Source: Porphyra umbilicalis (taxonomy: Eukaryota; Rhodophyta; Bangiophyceae; Bangiales; Bangiaceae). Taken from it: 64,000 nt of DNA. The notes under the pieces are model-generated. The model had not been told where the DNA came from and did not search any database. It was given only the letters and a program-made list of their open reading frames with translations. Position 1 is the stretch's first letter; each line of letters begins with the position of its first letter. Where the stretch lies: contig KV919058.1 in NCBI GenBank assembly GCA_002049455.2, positions 1 to 64,000 on the forward strand, in the 5' to 3' direction. The translations under genes were made by a program, and so were the position numbers. Positions 1-9,505 of this stretch are shown here, piece after piece.

Positions 1-417
1 AATGATCCAGAAATGGCGAGCTATCTCGATTTATCATGAACGTTTTAGAAACGAAACCTTTAATCATGATCGCATGAACAACTGATATCCCTGCTGAAAT
101 ACCTGAGAAGTAAACAAATCGATGCTTTTTGTTTGATCTGTCCATGAGTCAAATGCAAATATTTTCTTACAAAGAAAAAATCGTTCCATGTCCCAGATTT
201 GGCCAATCACAGTGCATGACCTTCTACCGATCTCCTGCGGCCTGCGAGCATCCGTCAGACGCCAGGTGCCGCCCACAGTACCCATATTGCCACGAACAAC
301 CAGCAGCACCCGAGGCGAGCACGACAATCACCGCCCTCCCCTCTGCCGCCCTACCGGTCCACCCCGTCGGCTCGCTTGTCCTCACCCAAAGGCCACCCCA
401 ATGGCTCACCCACCAGC
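1..417. other. Window start, no gene recognised
   Basis: The first ~250 bases are clearly less GC-rich than what follows. I see no domain-bearing frame. From about 300 on, the sequence is the GC-rich 3' flank of the minus-strand demethylase gene, whose TGA stop lies at 418-420. Confidence 0.5.
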
Positions 418-3400
418 TCATCCACTGCCAGGCCTCTCGGGGTCGCCGCCACCAACGCCTGCAACACCCGGGAGCCCACCGGGCGGCGGTGGCTGCGAAC
501 ACGTCGCCCCAGAAGACGCCCCGCCGCCACCCAGGCGCGGGCGCTTGGCCTCGGGCTCGCCAGTCGCTCCCGCCTCCCCGGTCGTTGCAGACGCCAGTCC
601 GTTCGAAGGCCGACCGGTAGCGGCGCCGGGGACAACGAGCGGCATCGGCGCGCCGTGGGACACCACCGCCGCCGCCAGCGTCGAAGGCACGCGGTCGATC
701 GATGCTGCCGTCGGTGGGGCCACCACCCCTTGCGCTCCGCCCAGGACGTTCGTAGCGTCGAGCACGCCTGCTGGCGGCGGCGGCGGCGGCGGCACCGGCG
801 CCGCCGCCAACGGGGCCGCACCGGGCGGCGTCACCACAGGCGCTGCCATCGCAGACGTCGGGGCCACGAGCCCAAAACCCACCACGCCGCCACCAGGCAC
901 ACCATCCCCACCGCCACCACCGGCTGCCGCCAACACTGACGGGGGCGGCGGCGGCGGCGGCCCGGGCGCCGCCAGCAGTGGCGGCAGCGGCACAGCAGCG
1001 GCTGGCGAGGTCCTCGCGCGGGCCTCGGCTGGGCCCACTCCCCCCCTGGCGGGCGCGGCCGCCCACCCCCCCTCGGGCGCACTCGTCGGCACGCCCGCCG
1101 CGGCGCCTCCCGTCCCCGCCGGCTCGCCCTTTCCCCAATGGGCCGCCACCTGCGCCGCGTGTGCGTCCGTCACCATCTCCTTCATGCCGAGCGCGTCGAC
1201 GACGCGGGCGGCCTCCCGCAATCCCGACATGTAGGCCGACGCGCACGTGGTCGGGTTGGTGCGGCACGTGTGTTCGCCCGCAAAAAAGAGGCGGCGGCCG
1301 ACCGGCTCGGCGAGCACATCATAATCCGCGCCGCTGCTGCCGACTGGGATGTGGGTGTAGGCGCCGCGCGCCCACGGGTCGGCCGTCCACCGGGTGACCG
1401 TCGCGGCGGTCGGGTCGGGGCACGCGGGGAAGCGGCGGCGGAGGACGGCGACGGCTGACGCGAGAATGTGCGCGTCTGGGTGTGCTTCCATCGCCCCGAC
1501 CGACGGTTCCGCGACAATAGCAAGGAGCACGGGCGCGTCGAGGACCGCCGCCATGTTCCACCAAATGTAAAACTCGCCCCGCCGATCGTCGTCGTCGGGG
1601 AGCATCCCAAACAGGTCGTCCTGATCCCAAAACACCGTCGGGAAAGAGAGGGCGACCTTCATTAACCCTCCGCAGCCGAGGCGGCGGATGGCTGCCTGTT
1701 TTTTCGGTGGCAGCGGCGGGCTAAACGCAATGTCCCCGGCCTTGAGGACGCCCAGCGGGGCGGTGATGACGACCGCGTCGAATTCCGTGGCCAAGGTCGG
1801 CGGCATGGCCGCCGCCGCCGCCGCCGCCGCCGCCGACACTGCCGCCGTTGCCTCCCGCGGGGTGCCGCGAGCGGCCACCGCCGCCGCCGCCGCCGCCGCT
1901 GCCGCCGCCTTGGACGCCCGCGCCGCCACCCGGTCGACGGTCGTGATGACGACGGCGGGCCCGTCGCGGGCCGACGACCGCCATGCAATTTTGGTCACCG
2001 CCCGGGAGGTGTGGATGACGCCCTCCAGGCCAGCCGTCATGCCGTCGAGGATTGGGCGGAAGCCCTTGCGCAACAGCACGTGGTCGCCCTCAAAGCCGTA
2101 CGGGTCGTCTTGATCCCAGTGCACCGCCGACACGTCGTACACCGACGCCGCGCAGCCGTACTCGAGGTTGGCTTGGTGCCACCGCAGGAGGCGTACCATG
2201 AGCGGGTTGGTGTTGAGGCCGTTGGCGAGCGCCGCCGCGACCGCCGTGGCGCCGCCGTCGCCGTCGGCACGGGGGGTGCCGTTGGGGGCGGCGGGGGGAG
2301 CGGGCGCGACCGTGCTGGCGCCATGGCCATTGGCGGTCGCCCCCGTGTGGCCGGGCGCCCCACCGTCACCGTTGGCCGCCCCCGCTGCCGTCGCTGCCGC
2401 CGCCGCCGCCGCCGCTGCCGTCACCGCCGTCGCGGCCCCAGCCACAGCGGCTGCCGTCACGCCACCGCTGCCTGGGGCGCCGGTCGCCTCCTTTGCCGCC
2501 AGTCCGACACCCGGCCGCACCTGGCGCTCCCGCGCCGACCGCACGAGGCGCTGCTTTTCTCGCGCCTCCCACGTCTTGCGGACGACGTCGCCCAAGGAGG
2601 CGTTGCTGAGGGATCCCCCCTCAGCGCGGCGCCCCGCGTCGACCTCCTCCAGGATCGCGTTGAATTCGGCTTCCGCCGCCCCATCCGCGTCCTTCTCCAC
2701 CGCCTTACCGTCAATGTCGTACAGCGGACATGCCGGCTGCACGACGACCGACGTGGCGCCGACTTGCGACGCGACCACCGCCAGCGGGTTTTGCGCAATC
2801 CCCGTGATGAGCATCGCGCCGAGGTCGACGGGCACGCCGCCAAAGGTTTCCTCGTCCGTGTGGATGCGCCCGCCGAGGCGGCCGCGCGCCTCAAACACCG
2901 TCACCCCCGCGCCAAACGAGACAAGCTGCCGCGCGGTCGCGAGCCCCGCCATCCCCGCGCCAACGACGGCCACCCGCCGCCGCCGTGGGCGTCGCCGCGC
3001 GGGCGGGCGCGACTCGGGCGCGTCGAGGTGCGCGCGCACGCGCTCCGCCACGGGGCAGTGGATGAGGGACAAGGCGCCCGCGTTGATGACTCCGTGGCGC
3101 TCGAGGTAGGAGAAGAGGAGTACCCCCACCGGGTGGTACTTGGCGGGCACGTCGGACAAGGCGTGCACGACGCCCAGCCGGGTGGCCACGTTGCGGTACC
3201 ACATGCGGATGAGATGGTTGCGCACGTCGACATAGACGGCCCGGTTGGCAATGGCGTCTTCCAGCTCGGGCTGCTGGCGCTCCGCCTCCTCAATGTCATT
3301 GACGAGGATGCGCGCGGCAATCACCGCCGCCGTCGTCTCCGAGTGCTCCTCCCAGTCCCGCACATTCGAGTCGGCCTCCTCGTCGCCGGCGCGGCCGGGG

Positions 3401-4890
3401 CGCGCCGTCGCCGCCACCTCACACCCGCGGACGCCCGCGCGGAGGGGAGGGGAGAAGGTGCGGATGGCGGCCCGCCACTCGGGCGGCTCCTCAGCCGCGG
3501 CCGCGGCCGCGACCTTGGACGCCACCGCAGCGGCGACGGAGGGAGAGCTCACGCCGCCGCCGCCGCCGCCGCTGCCGCGGCCGCCGCCGCCCCCGGCCGC
3601 CGCGTCGTCGGCGGTGGAGCTCCCCCCCGTGGGGTGGCGCTCCCCCGACGCCCGATACAGGCCGACGCGGCGGTACGAGGTGTCGAGGAGGGCGTGCACC
3701 TCTGCCTCCCGCGGCAACACAAACGTCTTGTAGTTGCTGTGCATCTGCGTGCCGCCGGCGGTGCACGTTTTGGGCAGCGCCAGCGAGTCGGCAATGTCAT
3801 TGAAGCGCCGGTGGTCGACCGCCTGTGGGGAGAGCACGGAGGGGGTGGGCAAATGGGGGAACACGACGCGCGCGACGCACGGGGGGGGCAGGGGCCGCCC
3901 ATAGCCGCACCGCGGCGCGACCAGACCCGCGGGGCGCGCCCGACCGGGTGCCCCCGATGGGAGCAGAGACGGAGCTCGCGCGTTAGCACCGAGGCGCGAG
4001 GCGGCCAACCGGGCAGCAGAGAGGCGTATGCGACCGCCGACGGCGGTGGCGGCGCGGCGGCGCAGCGGCGGAGAGCCGCGCGCCACGGACCGCGCGGCGC
4101 GGCGTAGCCGGGCAGCGGGGGCGATGCGAAAAACGCCAGCGTACACCCGACACGCGGCCACGTGGACGGTACACCGGGATCCCGTTGCACAGGCGGGTGG
4201 TGGGTGGGGCAGCTCGGCCGCGCGGCGACAGCGATTGGCCGGCCACGCTGGGCCAATCGGCAGCCGCGCGCCGCCGCGCACGTCCTCCCCCGGCTCTGCG
4301 TGCAAGGGCCTCGACGCGCGGTCCCTCCCCGCGCTCCCGTCCCCCACAACAGACCGTCTCTCCACGTACCTTTTGATAACCGCCATACGACCGTACGCCT
4401 TCCACGGCCGCATAAAAGTCTGTCCGGTGGCGGTACACGCATCATCAAGCGTTCGTACCAGTGGCGCAAAATCGTCAGACATGAAAGCATCCGTGTTAGC
4501 ATTCGCCCGTATAATTGCGATTTGGCGTCGAGGCAGCGGCGGCTCGACCCGCGCCGCCACACCACCGCACGTCGAGTACCGTCCTTCCCCCGTCGCGGCG
4601 CCCACCCTCTGCGGCCGCTTGGTGCCACACAGCCGCCCCGCCGCGACGCTGGCTGGCGGTCTGCCCCGCACGCTCCCGCGCCGCGCCGCGCCGCCCTACC
4701 CGCCCCCTCAACCTCGGCGGCCTATCCCCCGGCGCTCGGCCGGTAGCACCGCGACCAACGTACCCATATCCCGCCCACCGACGCGGGGAAAGCCCTGCCC
4801 CGGGCGGGCGTGCGCGACGACTTGCTCGAAAAAGGCGTCGCACGCGGCGCGGCCGTGCAGGCGCGCCACCGGGTCGTCTGCCGCCGGCAT
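418..4890 (-). CDS. LSD1-like: ARID-SWIRM-amine oxidase protein, LSD1-like lysine-specific histone demethylase (3 exons)
   Basis: FAD-dependent amine oxidase of the LSD1/KDM1 family, which demethylates histone H3 lysines in the nucleus. My model has exons 4890-4764, 4419-4370 and 3822-418 (1,193 aa). The introns have donors GTACGTTG and GTACGTGG and acceptors ACAG and CCACAG, and their phases (1 and 0) fit exactly. Residues ~15-100 form an ARID DNA-binding domain built across all three exons, ending with LPKTCTAGGTQ and the conserved Y and LPRE. SWIRM is ~225-325. The FAD Rossmann motif VVGAGMAGL is ~346. The LSD1-type catalytic-core motifs WHQANLE (~605), GLMKVAL with the flavin-site lysine K781, and FFAGEHT (~906-911) are all present. 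An Ala/Gly-rich linker (~481-600) sits where LSD1 has its Tower helices. The C-terminal ~260 residues are low complexity. ATG 4890 was chosen because an in-frame TGA lies just upstream; an earlier exon is possible. The family call is firm; the ARID splicing is inference supported by frame and motif continuity. Confidence 0.9.
3823..4369 (-). other. Intron 2 of the LSD1-like gene
   Basis: 547-nt intron. Its donor AAAAG/GTACGTGG follows the ARID residues GGYQK. Its acceptor is pyrimidine-rich and ends CTCTCCCCACAG, before AVDHRRFND. A single uninterrupted frame also reads through this intron, but it translates into Arg/Pro-rich sequence without homology and would break the ARID domain. Confidence 0.85.
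4420..4763 (-). other. Intron 1 of the LSD1-like gene
   Basis: 344-nt phase-1 intron. The donor ATGG/GTACGTTG follows GGRDM, and the acceptor CCGGACAG precedes the 50-nt exon 2. Joining restores D-F-Y-A-A-V, the usual ARID motif after the first loop (compare LDLYALY in other ARIDs). Confidence 0.75.
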
Positions 4891-6504
4891 GGTCGGCGCA
4901 GGCGTTGGGGCTGGTCAGCCCGCGTAATCCGCACCCGCCCTGCTCGGCGCGGCGGTCGGCGCCTACGAGCGCGACGGCTGGGAGGGAAGAACGCGGGCGC
5001 CAGAAGACCCAAGCCCCGACCGCCCCAGCACGCGCAGACGCGCGTCGGCGAGCGCGCCTGGCGACCGCTGCCTGACGTGTCGCCGCGCGCCGCACCGACC
5101 GCGGCGGCACGCCGCGAGAAGGGGCGGCCGCGCCGCCCACGGTGCAACGAGGGGACGGGGTGGGGGGGGGGTGGCGAAGCCCAGACCGCCTCCACGAGGC
5201 GCGGCACACCCCGCCCTTTTGGCACCACGGGCGCGTCGGCCCCCGCGCGTGGTACACAGGGACCGGCGGCGTCGCGTCGACGGGGGTCGACGTTTGCGCG
5301 TACGCCGCGGGGGTGCGACGGGAGCAGCGCGGGCGGCGGCGGCCGCGCTCGCGCACGCGCACCACCGCACCGCGTCGGCGGGTGAGCGGCGGACCGAGGA
5401 GGACAGGGGCAAGACTGCCCCCGACACGGGACCACACGTGCGGTTCACCGCGGCGGACCACTCGTGCGACGCGGGCGGGTTTGGGGGGGAGCCCGCGCGC
5501 GAGTGCCAGCGGCCCGCCACAGTGGCACGGACGACGGAGGCCGAATTCTCTCCGCACGCGGAGCAGGGACGCGGCCGTTCTGCAACGACAATTGTGATAG
5601 CCAGAAATGCACTGTAAGCCACAAAGTGTCTGTACTCTGGTGCATCCATGGCCGCGGGGCACGCCGAGTTCAGGTGGCTCTTTTGAATTTGAAAAGCACG
5701 ATGCCATTACAAAAGTTGCCTGAAAGCGCCGCTATTCTGGTGTGGCCTCCAGTGGCTCTGGTCCACACTTTTGTGCCGGAGCGGCGATTTGGCAGCCCGT
5801 CTTGCTCGAGCAAGCGCTCGCCGCCACGTCCGCCCGTCGCCGGATCATCCCGCACCGTGCTCTTAATCGCTGTCCCGCCATCATGCCGCCTCTCCTTTCG
5901 CCCCTTATGTTTCCAAGCACCTTGAGGGCCGGCCCTGGACGTCAACAACTATATGGTAAAGGAGGGTCTGCATACAACCATGATGTGCGGTCAGCAGGAC
6001 CGGACAACACGAGATTTGCCGTCAACGAAGGCAGTCCAATTACTCTGGGTTCTTTTGTTGATAGTCTTGGGTGGACCGTATGTTTTTGGCATCATCGTGA
6101 TCAGTGCTCTGAGTTGATCCCAATGATATGAAAAGAACCCATCCGACCTCTATCGGCTCGGGCAGCAAACTGTATCTTCTTCGAACTGGGCTCGTCGGGT
6201 GTCATCTCTTTCGCATGAGAGCCGAAGAGAAGGATCAGAGACCGGCCTTCACACTGGGAGTGGACTCAATGGCATCTCGCCTGTTGAGTAGGTGTCATGC
6301 ACTGGTTGGCCCATATCCACTTCCACAGGAAAAACAGAGGACCTGGAGGCAGTAAGTGCTATATTTTCCAACCCCCTTGCCGGCCACCGCAACCGCCAAT
6401 GGAAAGCCAAATTTGTTGGACCAATCCAATCCGGTGGCTTCCTGAGCCGTGAAATCCAAAAGAGCTGCTGGAGGCGGTCTTAACTAAAGTCTGTCTCACT
6501 CTAT
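4891..6504. other. Intergenic, no gene recognised
   Basis: From 4891 to ~5640 the DNA is very GC-rich with open frames on both strands and no motif. It may hold the promoter and 5' UTR of the demethylase. After ~5640 base composition drops abruptly and I see nothing identifiable, which suggests old transposon-derived sequence. Confidence 0.4.
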
Positions 6505-6640
6505 TACAGCCGTTCTCCCAAGAATCCCGCACTCCAACAGTTGCAAAAGAGGTCCAAATCGGCCTCCGCGACCCCGCAGAGGCCGATTTGGAACTCTTTC
6601 GCAACAGTTGTAGAGCGGGATTTTTGGGATTACGGCTGTA
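6505..6640. repeat. Foldback MITE, family L copy 1
   Basis: 136 bp, from TACAGCCGTTCTC to GGATTACGGCTGTA. It folds into a long hairpin: the arms pair through the CCAAATCGGCCTC / GAGGCCGATTTGG segment around a CG-rich loop. The ends carry TA, the usual Tc1/mariner target. A second copy lies at 61058-61194. Confidence 0.8.
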
Positions 6641-6927
6641 GTCCTCTGAGAACCGTACTTTTTTTGGAGAGACCAGAACTCCGCCGCTACGACCGTAAAT
6701 GACAAGCAGTCGTCACACGAAGGATAGAGACCCCCCAAACCTTTTTGCTGCAAGAAATGGTACGCATTCTTCTGTAGGAAGCCCTTCAACGGCACACCTA
6801 TGTCGGAAAGATACGGCTCAGACGCTTCGTTTTCAGGCCTTCTGGCACACATGGCGAGCCGCACGAGGTCACAGCACCGTTTCTCGCATTTGTCCCATGT
6901 TCACGAGCCTCGTTCATTCGATTGCAC
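6641..6927. other. No gene recognised
   Basis: Unique-looking intermediate-GC sequence between the family-L hairpin and the next transposon. No motif or repeat was noted. Confidence 0.4.
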
Positions 6928-9505
6928 TATCCGTATGATACCATTCAACAACCAAGGGTCACCATTCAACAACCACTGTAGAGCGGTCTTTTCCACAGTG
7001 TCTACGCATAATTCATTTCCTGGGGTTTTCCAAAACTGCCGTACTGCAACTTGGGTCATTTTTCGATGGTCGGGAAAAAAAGAAAGCCAAACAGAACCCA
7101 CATTACTGGACGCAGCAGGTCGTCAGCTGTCGAACGGTGGTAGTCTCGACCGAGTCGGACACCTGGGTGAGACAACACGGACGAAAACGCCTCGTACGGG
7201 TGTTTGCCTGGGAGCGCGCTAAGCGTCCAATTTTGTGGTCAAATCGCCGCCAGAGGCACTCTCAGGCGTCCCACCCTGGTCAGCCCGCCAAAAACCACCA
7301 TCGACGCGCCCGATGCCAAGCGTCAAACGACGCTGCCCGCCTTGGCGCCCCCAACGAGAGGTCTCCTCGACTCTGAGGGGCACGCACGACAGCGGGCGAG
7401 ATGGGTGGGCGTTCGAGCGGTCGTCCGGTGTCTGGTGGGGCACGCAAACCGCGGCCAACGCCAGAGCAGCAGCGGCAGATGGCTGATCTGCTAACGCAGG
7501 GCCTGGCCGGCACCGCTGTCGCTCGAGAGGTTGGTGTTTCTCGTGGTGCGGTGCGCCACTTCGTCGCTACTGGGGGCAAGGCAGCCCCTGCCGGTCGGCG
7601 CCCCTTTTTTCTGCGAGAGGAGGAGGAGTTGCTTGTTCGCTTTGTTAAGGTGCAGGCGCTGCTCGGTCGAGGGTTGAACAGGACTGGTTTTCTTCGTTGG
7701 GTGGGTGAATACATTTCTTGTCTCTCCACTGAGCGTCAAGCGTCCGCCCGGTCTTACTTTGGTGGGAGCCTTACCCCTGGGATTTCGTTTTTTCGCTTGT
7801 TTTTGGGTCGGTGGCCTGCGCTGCAGATGTACCGCGTGGGCACTTTGGAGCAGAGCCGTGCCGAGAATGCGCGACCGGATGTGCTTGCCAAGTGGTTTGC
7901 TGGCCTCCGATTGATCTACCGGGACCTGAATATCGTGCAACCACGACTACTGTGGAACATGGACGAGACTCAAGTCAAGGCCAGGGAGCTGCTACTTGAG
8001 GCGCGGTCCACAATTATCGGGCCCCGAGGCTTAAGGAAGCCGGAGGTTGTGATGGCCATGATTGGCTCTGGGGCTGCGGCCTGCACGGCGGCGTTTGCCA
8101 TCTCGCCTGCCGGCATGGTCGCGCCTCATTTTCTGGTGGTGGCCGGCAGCGCAAGCGGCCACGCCTACGTGCAGGTGACGGAGGACGGCAAGGAGAGAAA
8201 GGTGGCTTTGGCGTCGCGTCTCAACGACTCGACGGTGGTGGTGCGGCGGGACCCGCCGGGGTTCGACCGTGGCGTCTTTGACGTGTGGGCGCAGCAGTTT
8301 GCCGCCTTCGCCAAGAGCTACTACCCAGAGGAGAATAAGCTGCTGGCTTTAGACGGAGCAAAAGTCCACCTATCGGCTTTCGGCTTCCTGGCGCTCGTGC
8401 GGGCTAAGGTGCATGTTATTGCAGAACCCTCTACACTTTCGCACCTCATTCAAGCTTTAGACAACAATTCGGCGTACGGCAGCTTCTAGCCAGCCATTCG
8501 ACGTCATGTTCGCAGCCGGTCGGGAGAGCGTGTCGGTCTCGGGTGCAGCTTCACAGTGCTGGACTTGATGGACTGCATCAAGAAAGCCGCCGACCACGCT
8601 TTCTCCCCCTTTCACCTAGCCGCAGCGTTTGCTAACGTCGGAATGTGGCCATTGGACCCCAAAAAGGTCTGTTTGGAGGAGGTCGACAAGGGAGCCGACC
8701 GCACGGCAAAAAACGTCGACTTACAGCTGTTGGCTGACCGTGCGGTCCCTGCCATGCGCAAAGACCTCAAGCAGACCACCATCATCCAGGGCACCCTGTC
8801 GACTGCTGGGCGGCCCGTCAACCTGACGGCGCCGGATGTGATTTCCGCCCTCGAGAAATTGGAGGAGGACAAGAGAGTCAAGGCCGCTGCGCAGGAGCAG
8901 CGGCGGCGGGAGAAAGCTGCACGGGTGGCGGCAACAAGGCCACCAAGGCCAAGCGGGACGCTGCTCTAGAGGCGGCCAGGTTTGAGAAGGCGTGGCGCGT
9001 TGTTTGCGCCGACGCCGTGGAGGAGGCGCGCCACAGATTGAGCCGGGCAAACCCGTCTCCACGCAAGCGTAAGCTCCAGATGGCTGCCGCAAGGCAGCGC
9101 GCACGCCTCGGCGTTGCATCCAATTGAGCTGGAGAGGTGGTGTCCGTATACTGCTTTTGTGTGTGTGTGTTTGTTTGTGTGCGAGTGTCAAAGCGAAGAA
9201 TGAAGTGTCGTTTGATTGGTTCGCGGCGTTCGGTAAGGGATGGTCAAACATCAAATGAGTCTTCCAATTATCGTTCGACATTGCGAGGTGACTGCTTTAG
9301 ACGGGATAGAGGAATGGTTGTTGAATGGTGACCCTGTCGTTTACTCCGTAAATCAAAAACAATATGAGAGTGCTTGTCGAGAAAAAAAAAAAAATGGGCA
9401 CGCTCAGGAGGCTCTCACGAGCACATCGGTATGCTCGAAAGCAAGAACGGACAGCAGCAGCGCCCATGGCGAGTTTTGTGGTTGTTGAATGGTATCATAC
9501 GGATA
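6928..9505 (+). mobile_element. TA-flanked DNA transposon with a decayed DDD transposase
   Basis: Bounded by TA at 6928-6929 and 9504-9505. The terminal inverted repeats start TCCGTATGATACCATTCAAC and match for about 26 bases. The inner motif ACCATTCAACAACCA is repeated again inside each end (6961-6975 on the left; reverse-complemented near 9315-9330 on the right), so each end has a doubled repeat. TA ends plus a DDE_1-type transposase point to the pogo branch of the Tc1/mariner superfamily. The transposase is broken, so this copy is not autonomous. Confidence 0.85.
7401..9127 (+). pseudogene. pogo-like DD35D transposase, interrupted by an in-frame TAG and a frameshift
   Basis: Transposase of the element at 6928-9505. 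The N-terminal helix-turn-helix (~residues 18-60; AVAREVGVSRGAVRH) would bind the inverted repeats. The DDE_1 catalytic core shows D188 in WNMDETQ, D318 in LLALDGAKVH and a third D354 in QALDNN, so 35 residues lie between the last two aspartates. A TAG at 8487-8489 interrupts the frame. The same frame continues with conserved C-terminal sequence (AFSPFHLAAAFANVGMWPLD; WPLDP is typical of the family). A second lesion, a frameshift at about 8920-8935, moves the Lys/Arg-rich tail to another frame ending at TGA 9125-9127. ATG 7401 is the first in frame. Confident as a transposase; inactive as sequenced. Confidence 0.88.

Follow-up and report, generated by a model that had tools for sequence, protein, structure and literature searches.

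The window analysed here is the first 64,000 nucleotides of contig KV919058.1 of the red alga Porphyra umbilicalis (assembly GCA_002049455.2), and the gene under study occupies positions 418 to 4,890 on its minus strand. The gene is predicted to consist of three exons that together encode an ARID, a SWIRM domain and an amine oxidase resembling that of the histone demethylase LSD1. The ARID is spread over all three exons, with its C-terminal half in the same exon as the other two domains. In the direction of transcription, the features of the gene are as follows.

4764..4890 (minus strand): exon 1, with the ATG start codon and the N-terminal part of the ARID, ending at a GTACGT donor; placed by an intron-aware profile search
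4420..4763 (minus strand): intron 1, 344 nucleotides, phase 1, GTACGT...CAG; located by the intron-aware search
4370..4419 (minus strand): exon 2, the middle of the ARID (FYAAVEGVRSYGGYQK); placed by the intron-aware search and ungapped in the ARID alignment
3823..4369 (minus strand): intron 2, 547 nucleotides, phase 0, GTACGT...CAG; located by the intron-aware search
418..3822 (minus strand): exon 3, with the C-terminal half of the ARID, a linker, the SWIRM domain, the amine oxidase, a Pro/Gly-rich tail and the stop codon; from the open reading frame and Pfam matches
3706..3822 (minus strand): the ARID half within exon 3; by itself it scores 19.1 bits against an ARID profile of seven sequences and 31.6 when the profile is run on DNA
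3082..3297 (minus strand): SWIRM domain; 34.6 bits in a six-frame search and 28.8 bits on the spliced protein (cut-off 28.6)
1201..2952 (minus strand): amine oxidase dependent on flavin adenine dinucleotide, with low-complexity insertions; Pfam matches at 2952-2578, 2193-1909 and 1785-1201

Joining the exons, which measure 127, 50 and 3405 nucleotides, yields a product of 1193 amino acids with a single, terminal stop. Both introns open with GTACGT and close with CAG, and both joins remain in frame, at phases 1 and 0. The ATG at 4890 is the first beyond an in-frame stop, from which eight codons separate it, and the open frame of exon 3 runs to 1134 codons plus the stop. A codon score trained on exon 3 is above zero in the predicted frame of exon 1 (0.23 per codon) and of the exon-3 ARID half (0.31), and falls below zero in each of the three same-strand frames of either intron. 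An earlier note on this DNA, written from the sequence alone, had drawn the same three exons, and its coordinates, GT-AG ends and phases were all recovered. It had also held that splicing creates the ARID and that the unspliced frame hides it. Both points were borne out with Pfam profiles: the first 120 residues of the spliced product score 29.4 bits for ARID against a cut-off of 24.1, and neither the unspliced frame of 1425 amino acids nor exon 3 alone gives an ARID match at E ≤ 1. On the spliced protein all three domains pass their Pfam cut-offs in the order that the note had given, and this predicted order, ARID, SWIRM, amine oxidase, is well supported. The three-exon, ARID-encoding gene model is confirmed as a reading of genomic DNA alone.

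The same introns emerged from a search that was not supplied with their positions. An ARID profile was aligned to the raw DNA from 5400 to 3690, with introns permitted at any GT...AG, and picked exactly 4763-4420 and 4369-3823 with a score of 40.6. None of 1800 controls reached this value, the top one scoring 38.4. Keeping the exon-3 half and dinucleotide-shuffling everything upstream gave at most 38.4 in 600 trials; swapping the upstream part for other DNA of the window gave at most 35.3 in another 600; and 600 wholly different window stretches peaked at 19.7, with a mean of 13.9. Since the control stretches from the window were sampled randomly and overlap one another, each set of 600 amounts to fewer independent samples. 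Of the 40.6, 31.6 comes from the exon-3 half.

The profile was built from five solved ARIDs and two unbroken ARIDs of the same genome (contigs C6 and C110). One of these seven sequences, the JARID2 stretch, was taken from an alignment with the protein under study, which makes the profile partly dependent on that protein; the Pfam score is free of this dependence. Against the profile, residues 1-110 reach 39.5 bits (best of 2000 shuffles, 5.2), the exon-3 half alone 19.1 bits, and exons 1 and 2 alone 9.7 bits. The alignment is ungapped over 70 residues, spanning both exon junctions, and retains the GG motif and the LPKTCT segment. Compared with solved structures, the N-terminus matched ARID proteins in 17 of 19 cases up to E 10, with the remaining two at E 1.2 and 1.4; the best solved ARIDs in this single-sequence search were JARID2 (E 0.00019) and ARID2 (E 0.00041). 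Half of the ARID shares one uninterrupted open frame with the SWIRM domain and the oxidase.

The remainder of the protein resembles human LSD1 closely. Pfam Amino_oxidase scores 238.9 bits on the spliced protein against a cut-off of 19.8, and SWIRM reaches 28.5 bits in the unspliced frame. Human LSD1 is the closest solved relative (304.2 bits, E 1.9e-89), ahead of LSD2 (253.5 bits) and a plant polyamine oxidase (117.3 bits), and identity to it over the aligned columns is 90/231 (39%) in one segment and 125/277 (45%) in the other. Individual human LSD1 residues were also looked up: the algal protein is identical at 13 of the 18 in the first half of the oxidase and at 20 of the 27 in the second. 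The GxGxxG glycines, the equivalent of the catalytic lysine K661, E801 and T810 are kept; F692 is replaced by tyrosine. The set that we take to bind the H3 tail is identical at all 11 positions (D375, E379, N535, D553, D555, D556, H564, W695, W751, W756 and Y761), this list and the roles of the looked-up residues being assumed. Where LSD1 has its tower, the LSD1 alignment skips 136 residues, 61% of them Ala, Gly, Pro and Thr, and no tower is recognisable by sequence; a second, Ala-rich interruption of the oxidase spans 46 residues. Pfam returned 11 matches at E ≤ 1, none of them to a zinc-finger family, JmjN or JmjC. Residues 97-234, about 138 in all and in part rich in Gly and Ala, form a linker between the ARID and the SWIRM domain.

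Placed beside known demethylases, the protein shares with human LSD1 (KDM1A) the SWIRM domain followed by the flavin-dependent oxidase, the catalytic lysine and most of the H3-tail residues that were looked up. It differs at the tower, an insertion of about 100 residues that in LSD1 binds CoREST and whose position here holds Ala/Gly-rich low-complexity sequence, and human LSD1 is not known to have an ARID. In the KDM5 (JARID1) proteins an ARID lies within the same chain as an H3K4 demethylase; KDM5, however, is a JmjC enzyme, and the protein here is without JmjN or JmjC. PHF2 and ARID5B divide these parts between two chains, a JmjC demethylase and an ARID protein. There the likeness is one of role, in that ARID5B recruits PHF2 to chromatin (PMC4687429). 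Human LSD2 (KDM1B) also combines SWIRM and amine oxidase with an additional N-terminal module and has no tower, but its module consists of CW and C4H2C2 zinc fingers (PMC6558185), none of which matched here, and it scores lower than LSD1. Fusion of an LSD1-type enzyme to a DNA-binding domain is documented in the fungal homologues of Schizosaccharomyces pombe (Swm2), Neurospora and Aspergillus nidulans (PMC2442719), where an HMG box lies in the C-terminal extension, whereas the ARID here is N-terminal. Plant LDL3 carries a TFIIS-like domain (PMC6558185).

On these comparisons the earlier note fared well. Its description of the LSD2 zinc fingers as CW and C4H2C2 agrees with PMC6558185. The HMG box that it gave to the fission-yeast enzymes likewise agrees with PMC2442719, in which Swm2 has the box and Swm1 does not. 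The ARID-SWIRM-oxidase architecture, which the note did not know from elsewhere, was not found in the searched literature either: no ARID-LSD1 fusion appeared among the literature matches listed, with most subscription journals and eukaryotic protein databases outside the coverage. In PMC2579438, on the history of the histone demethylase families, the word ARID is absent from the main text. Since DNA-binding additions to the enzyme are known, with HMG boxes in fungi and zinc fingers in animals, the ARID fusion is a further variant and not a new kind.

Judging from sequence features, the product is probably a flavin-dependent histone lysine demethylase of the LSD1 type (KDM1) whose N-terminal ARID holds DNA in cis. 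Its predicted activity is most likely demethylation of mono- and dimethylated lysine 4 of histone H3 (H3K4me1/2). Human LSD1 requires CoREST on nucleosomes, extranucleosomal DNA boosts the activity of the LSD1-CoREST complex, and the CoREST SANT domain appears to bind DNA (PMC4446439). In the algal protein the ARID would contact DNA beside the nucleosome, with the linker of about 138 residues letting it reach linker DNA, and would take over in cis the task for which human LSD1 depends on the SANT domain in trans. Plants are without CoREST, and LDL1 and LSD2, both tower-less, are active (PMC6558185). A search of the Porphyra genome for ELM2, a CoREST marker, gave no match, and the control genomes gave none either.

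Several observations weigh against this reading. Measured on the whole protein, the Pfam margins are slim, at 24.3 against 24.1 bits for ARID and 28.8 against 28.6 for SWIRM. In place of the TSAAF.LR.QY that prevails among the other ARIDs of the profile, the segment aligned to the recognition helix has TAGGTQMHSNY; with two glycines there, the ARID may bind DNA weakly or no longer at all. By codon statistics the short exon 2 does not resemble coding sequence (-0.18 per codon), although the predicted frame is still the best of three, and exon 1 has one opposite-strand frame that also scores positive (0.17). Changes from human LSD1 in the oxidase include A539G, N540C, D530R, S687R, A809T and H812A. 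Relatives of the exon-3 protein or of the oxidase alignment in another species numbered zero in a search covering viral contigs and bacterial and archaeal genomes only, which is uninformative on recurrence in algae. Some of these points would suit a genuine, inherited ARID that has lost its DNA binding and persists as a relic or as a protein-docking surface while partners target the enzyme. Such an origin would accommodate the Pfam score barely above cut-off, the two glycines and a net charge of only +2 over residues 10-100; the nearest solved relatives, JARID2 and ARID2, moreover belong to multi-subunit complexes. Retention of the GG motif, the LPKTCT segment and 70 gap-free residues is not what one expects of a relic, and we regard loss of DNA binding as unlikely, if well worth keeping in view.

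Doubts about the gene model itself carry less weight. Were translation to start elsewhere, either inside the 1425-residue unspliced frame or in a different exon, the mature protein would lack a complete ARID; that frame indeed stays open across intron 2 and most of intron 1, and exon 2 has only 50 nucleotides that do not look coding. Frame openness says little here, however, because long open frames overlap on both strands in this GC-rich DNA. Splicing is favoured by the coding scores, which drop below zero across the two introns and lie above it in exons 1 and 3, and by the failure of all 1200 alternative upstream sequences to complete the ARID equally well; the ARID half sits in exon 3 regardless. 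A different start is improbable on this evidence. That the ARID-SWIRM-oxidase fusion arose through faulty assembly or annotation is more improbable by far: the window is the beginning of its contig (C298), and another gene of the assembly, on contig C47, seems by eye to change frame at a G run, but the ARID half, SWIRM domain and oxidase occupy one frame of 1134 codons that contains no junction.

If the demethylase does hold DNA through its own ARID, a broader scenario can be drawn. A red-algal lineage may have built an LSD1 that acts on nucleosomes independently of CoREST, with the tower lost or never gained and the N-terminal ARID contacting linker DNA in cis, convergent with the fungal HMG-box LSD1 and the ARID-bearing KDM5; we offer this tentatively and consider it rather doubtful. 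The wider interest lies in how enzymes of the LSD1 type locate and grip nucleosomes in organisms other than animals; plants use them without CoREST (PMC6558185). With the ARID built into the same chain as the enzyme, deleting one domain would be enough to abolish the DNA contact, which would make the system a simple one, and red algae would join fungi (HMG) and animals (zinc fingers) in tying a DNA-binding module to this enzyme.

Across the assembly (83.8 Mb, 665 contigs), a single SWIRM-oxidase gene was found, the one in the window. SWIRM itself matched twice, in this gene and in a SWIRM-ZZ-Myb protein on contig C25 that is of SWI3 type by its domains. The six-frame genome search did not list the window's own ARID and can therefore miss domains split by introns. 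A second oxidase, on contig C128 (L020:1874-4495, plus strand), looks LSD1-like by eye (HWDMD, LLNKV) and has no SWIRM match. Contig C263 carries a KDM5-like candidate (L042, C263:80000-88000) with JmjN at 40.8 bits and JmjC at 114.1 bits, both over their cut-offs and in separate frames that we take to be exons of one gene. Below cut-off, it also shows a PHD-like stretch (18.5 bits) and KDM5_C-hel (14.5 bits), and between JmjN and JmjC lies a weak ARID-like stretch scoring 20.1, where the top of the 600 other window stretches is 19.7. PLU-1, another part of KDM5, had no match. The idea that an ARID moved to LSD1 owing to a missing KDM5 was set aside because JmjN and JmjC pass their cut-offs at C263. 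Two further ARID-like matches are taken as chance, one at C12:44043 near a JmjC copy (E 0.017; profile search 19.2, in four short pieces) and one at C55:269900 (E 0.27; profile search 16.3).

Three other oxidase-family genes, on contigs C47, C50 and C100, were inspected by eye for a splice consensus, a sample too small for the purpose. The gene on C50 has a convincing GTATGT...CAG intron within a conserved-looking stretch, and that on C100 has a GTACGG donor and an unclear acceptor. A candidate intron in the amine-oxidase-family gene on C47 (near C47:313800, L009) was rejected for an apparent frame change at a G run, perhaps an assembly error. Scans for bacterial-type promoters and terminators and for NCBIfam families added nothing.

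JmjC matches number 105 in the genome, 18 of them with internal stops. In each of the three copies that were scanned (L037, L038 and L039, of the 105), the opposite strand carries, no more than about 2 kb away, an open frame of the tnp2-type Transposase_21 family, scoring 26.0 to 28.5 bits, in each case just below the cut-off of 28.6. The paired frames are as follows.

L037: transposase frame 5921-8881 (minus strand), JmjC frame 2-5722 (plus strand)
L038: transposase frame 6629-8839 (minus strand), JmjC frame 3921-5228 (plus strand)
L039: transposase frame 524-2779 (plus strand), JmjC frame 3850-6849 (minus strand)

These may represent a JmjC-carrying transposon family, that is, a mobile element with a histone-demethylase domain. 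In Amoebidium, endogenised giant viruses carry KDM4-like JmjC genes (PMC11244446). Within the window, upstream of the ARID-SWIRM-oxidase gene and on the opposite strand, two adjoining open frames at 7377-8966 (plus strand) have by eye the look of a broken DDE-type transposase; their Pfam matches are all below cut-off, two of them to helix-turn-helix families. The guanine-plus-cytosine content of the window ranges from 57 to 79% in 4-kb steps, as would suit Bangiales. Elsewhere in the genome, phycobilisome-linker matches, which point to a red alga, number 12; contig C665, probably the plastid, carries four of them, and the remaining eight lie on different contigs.

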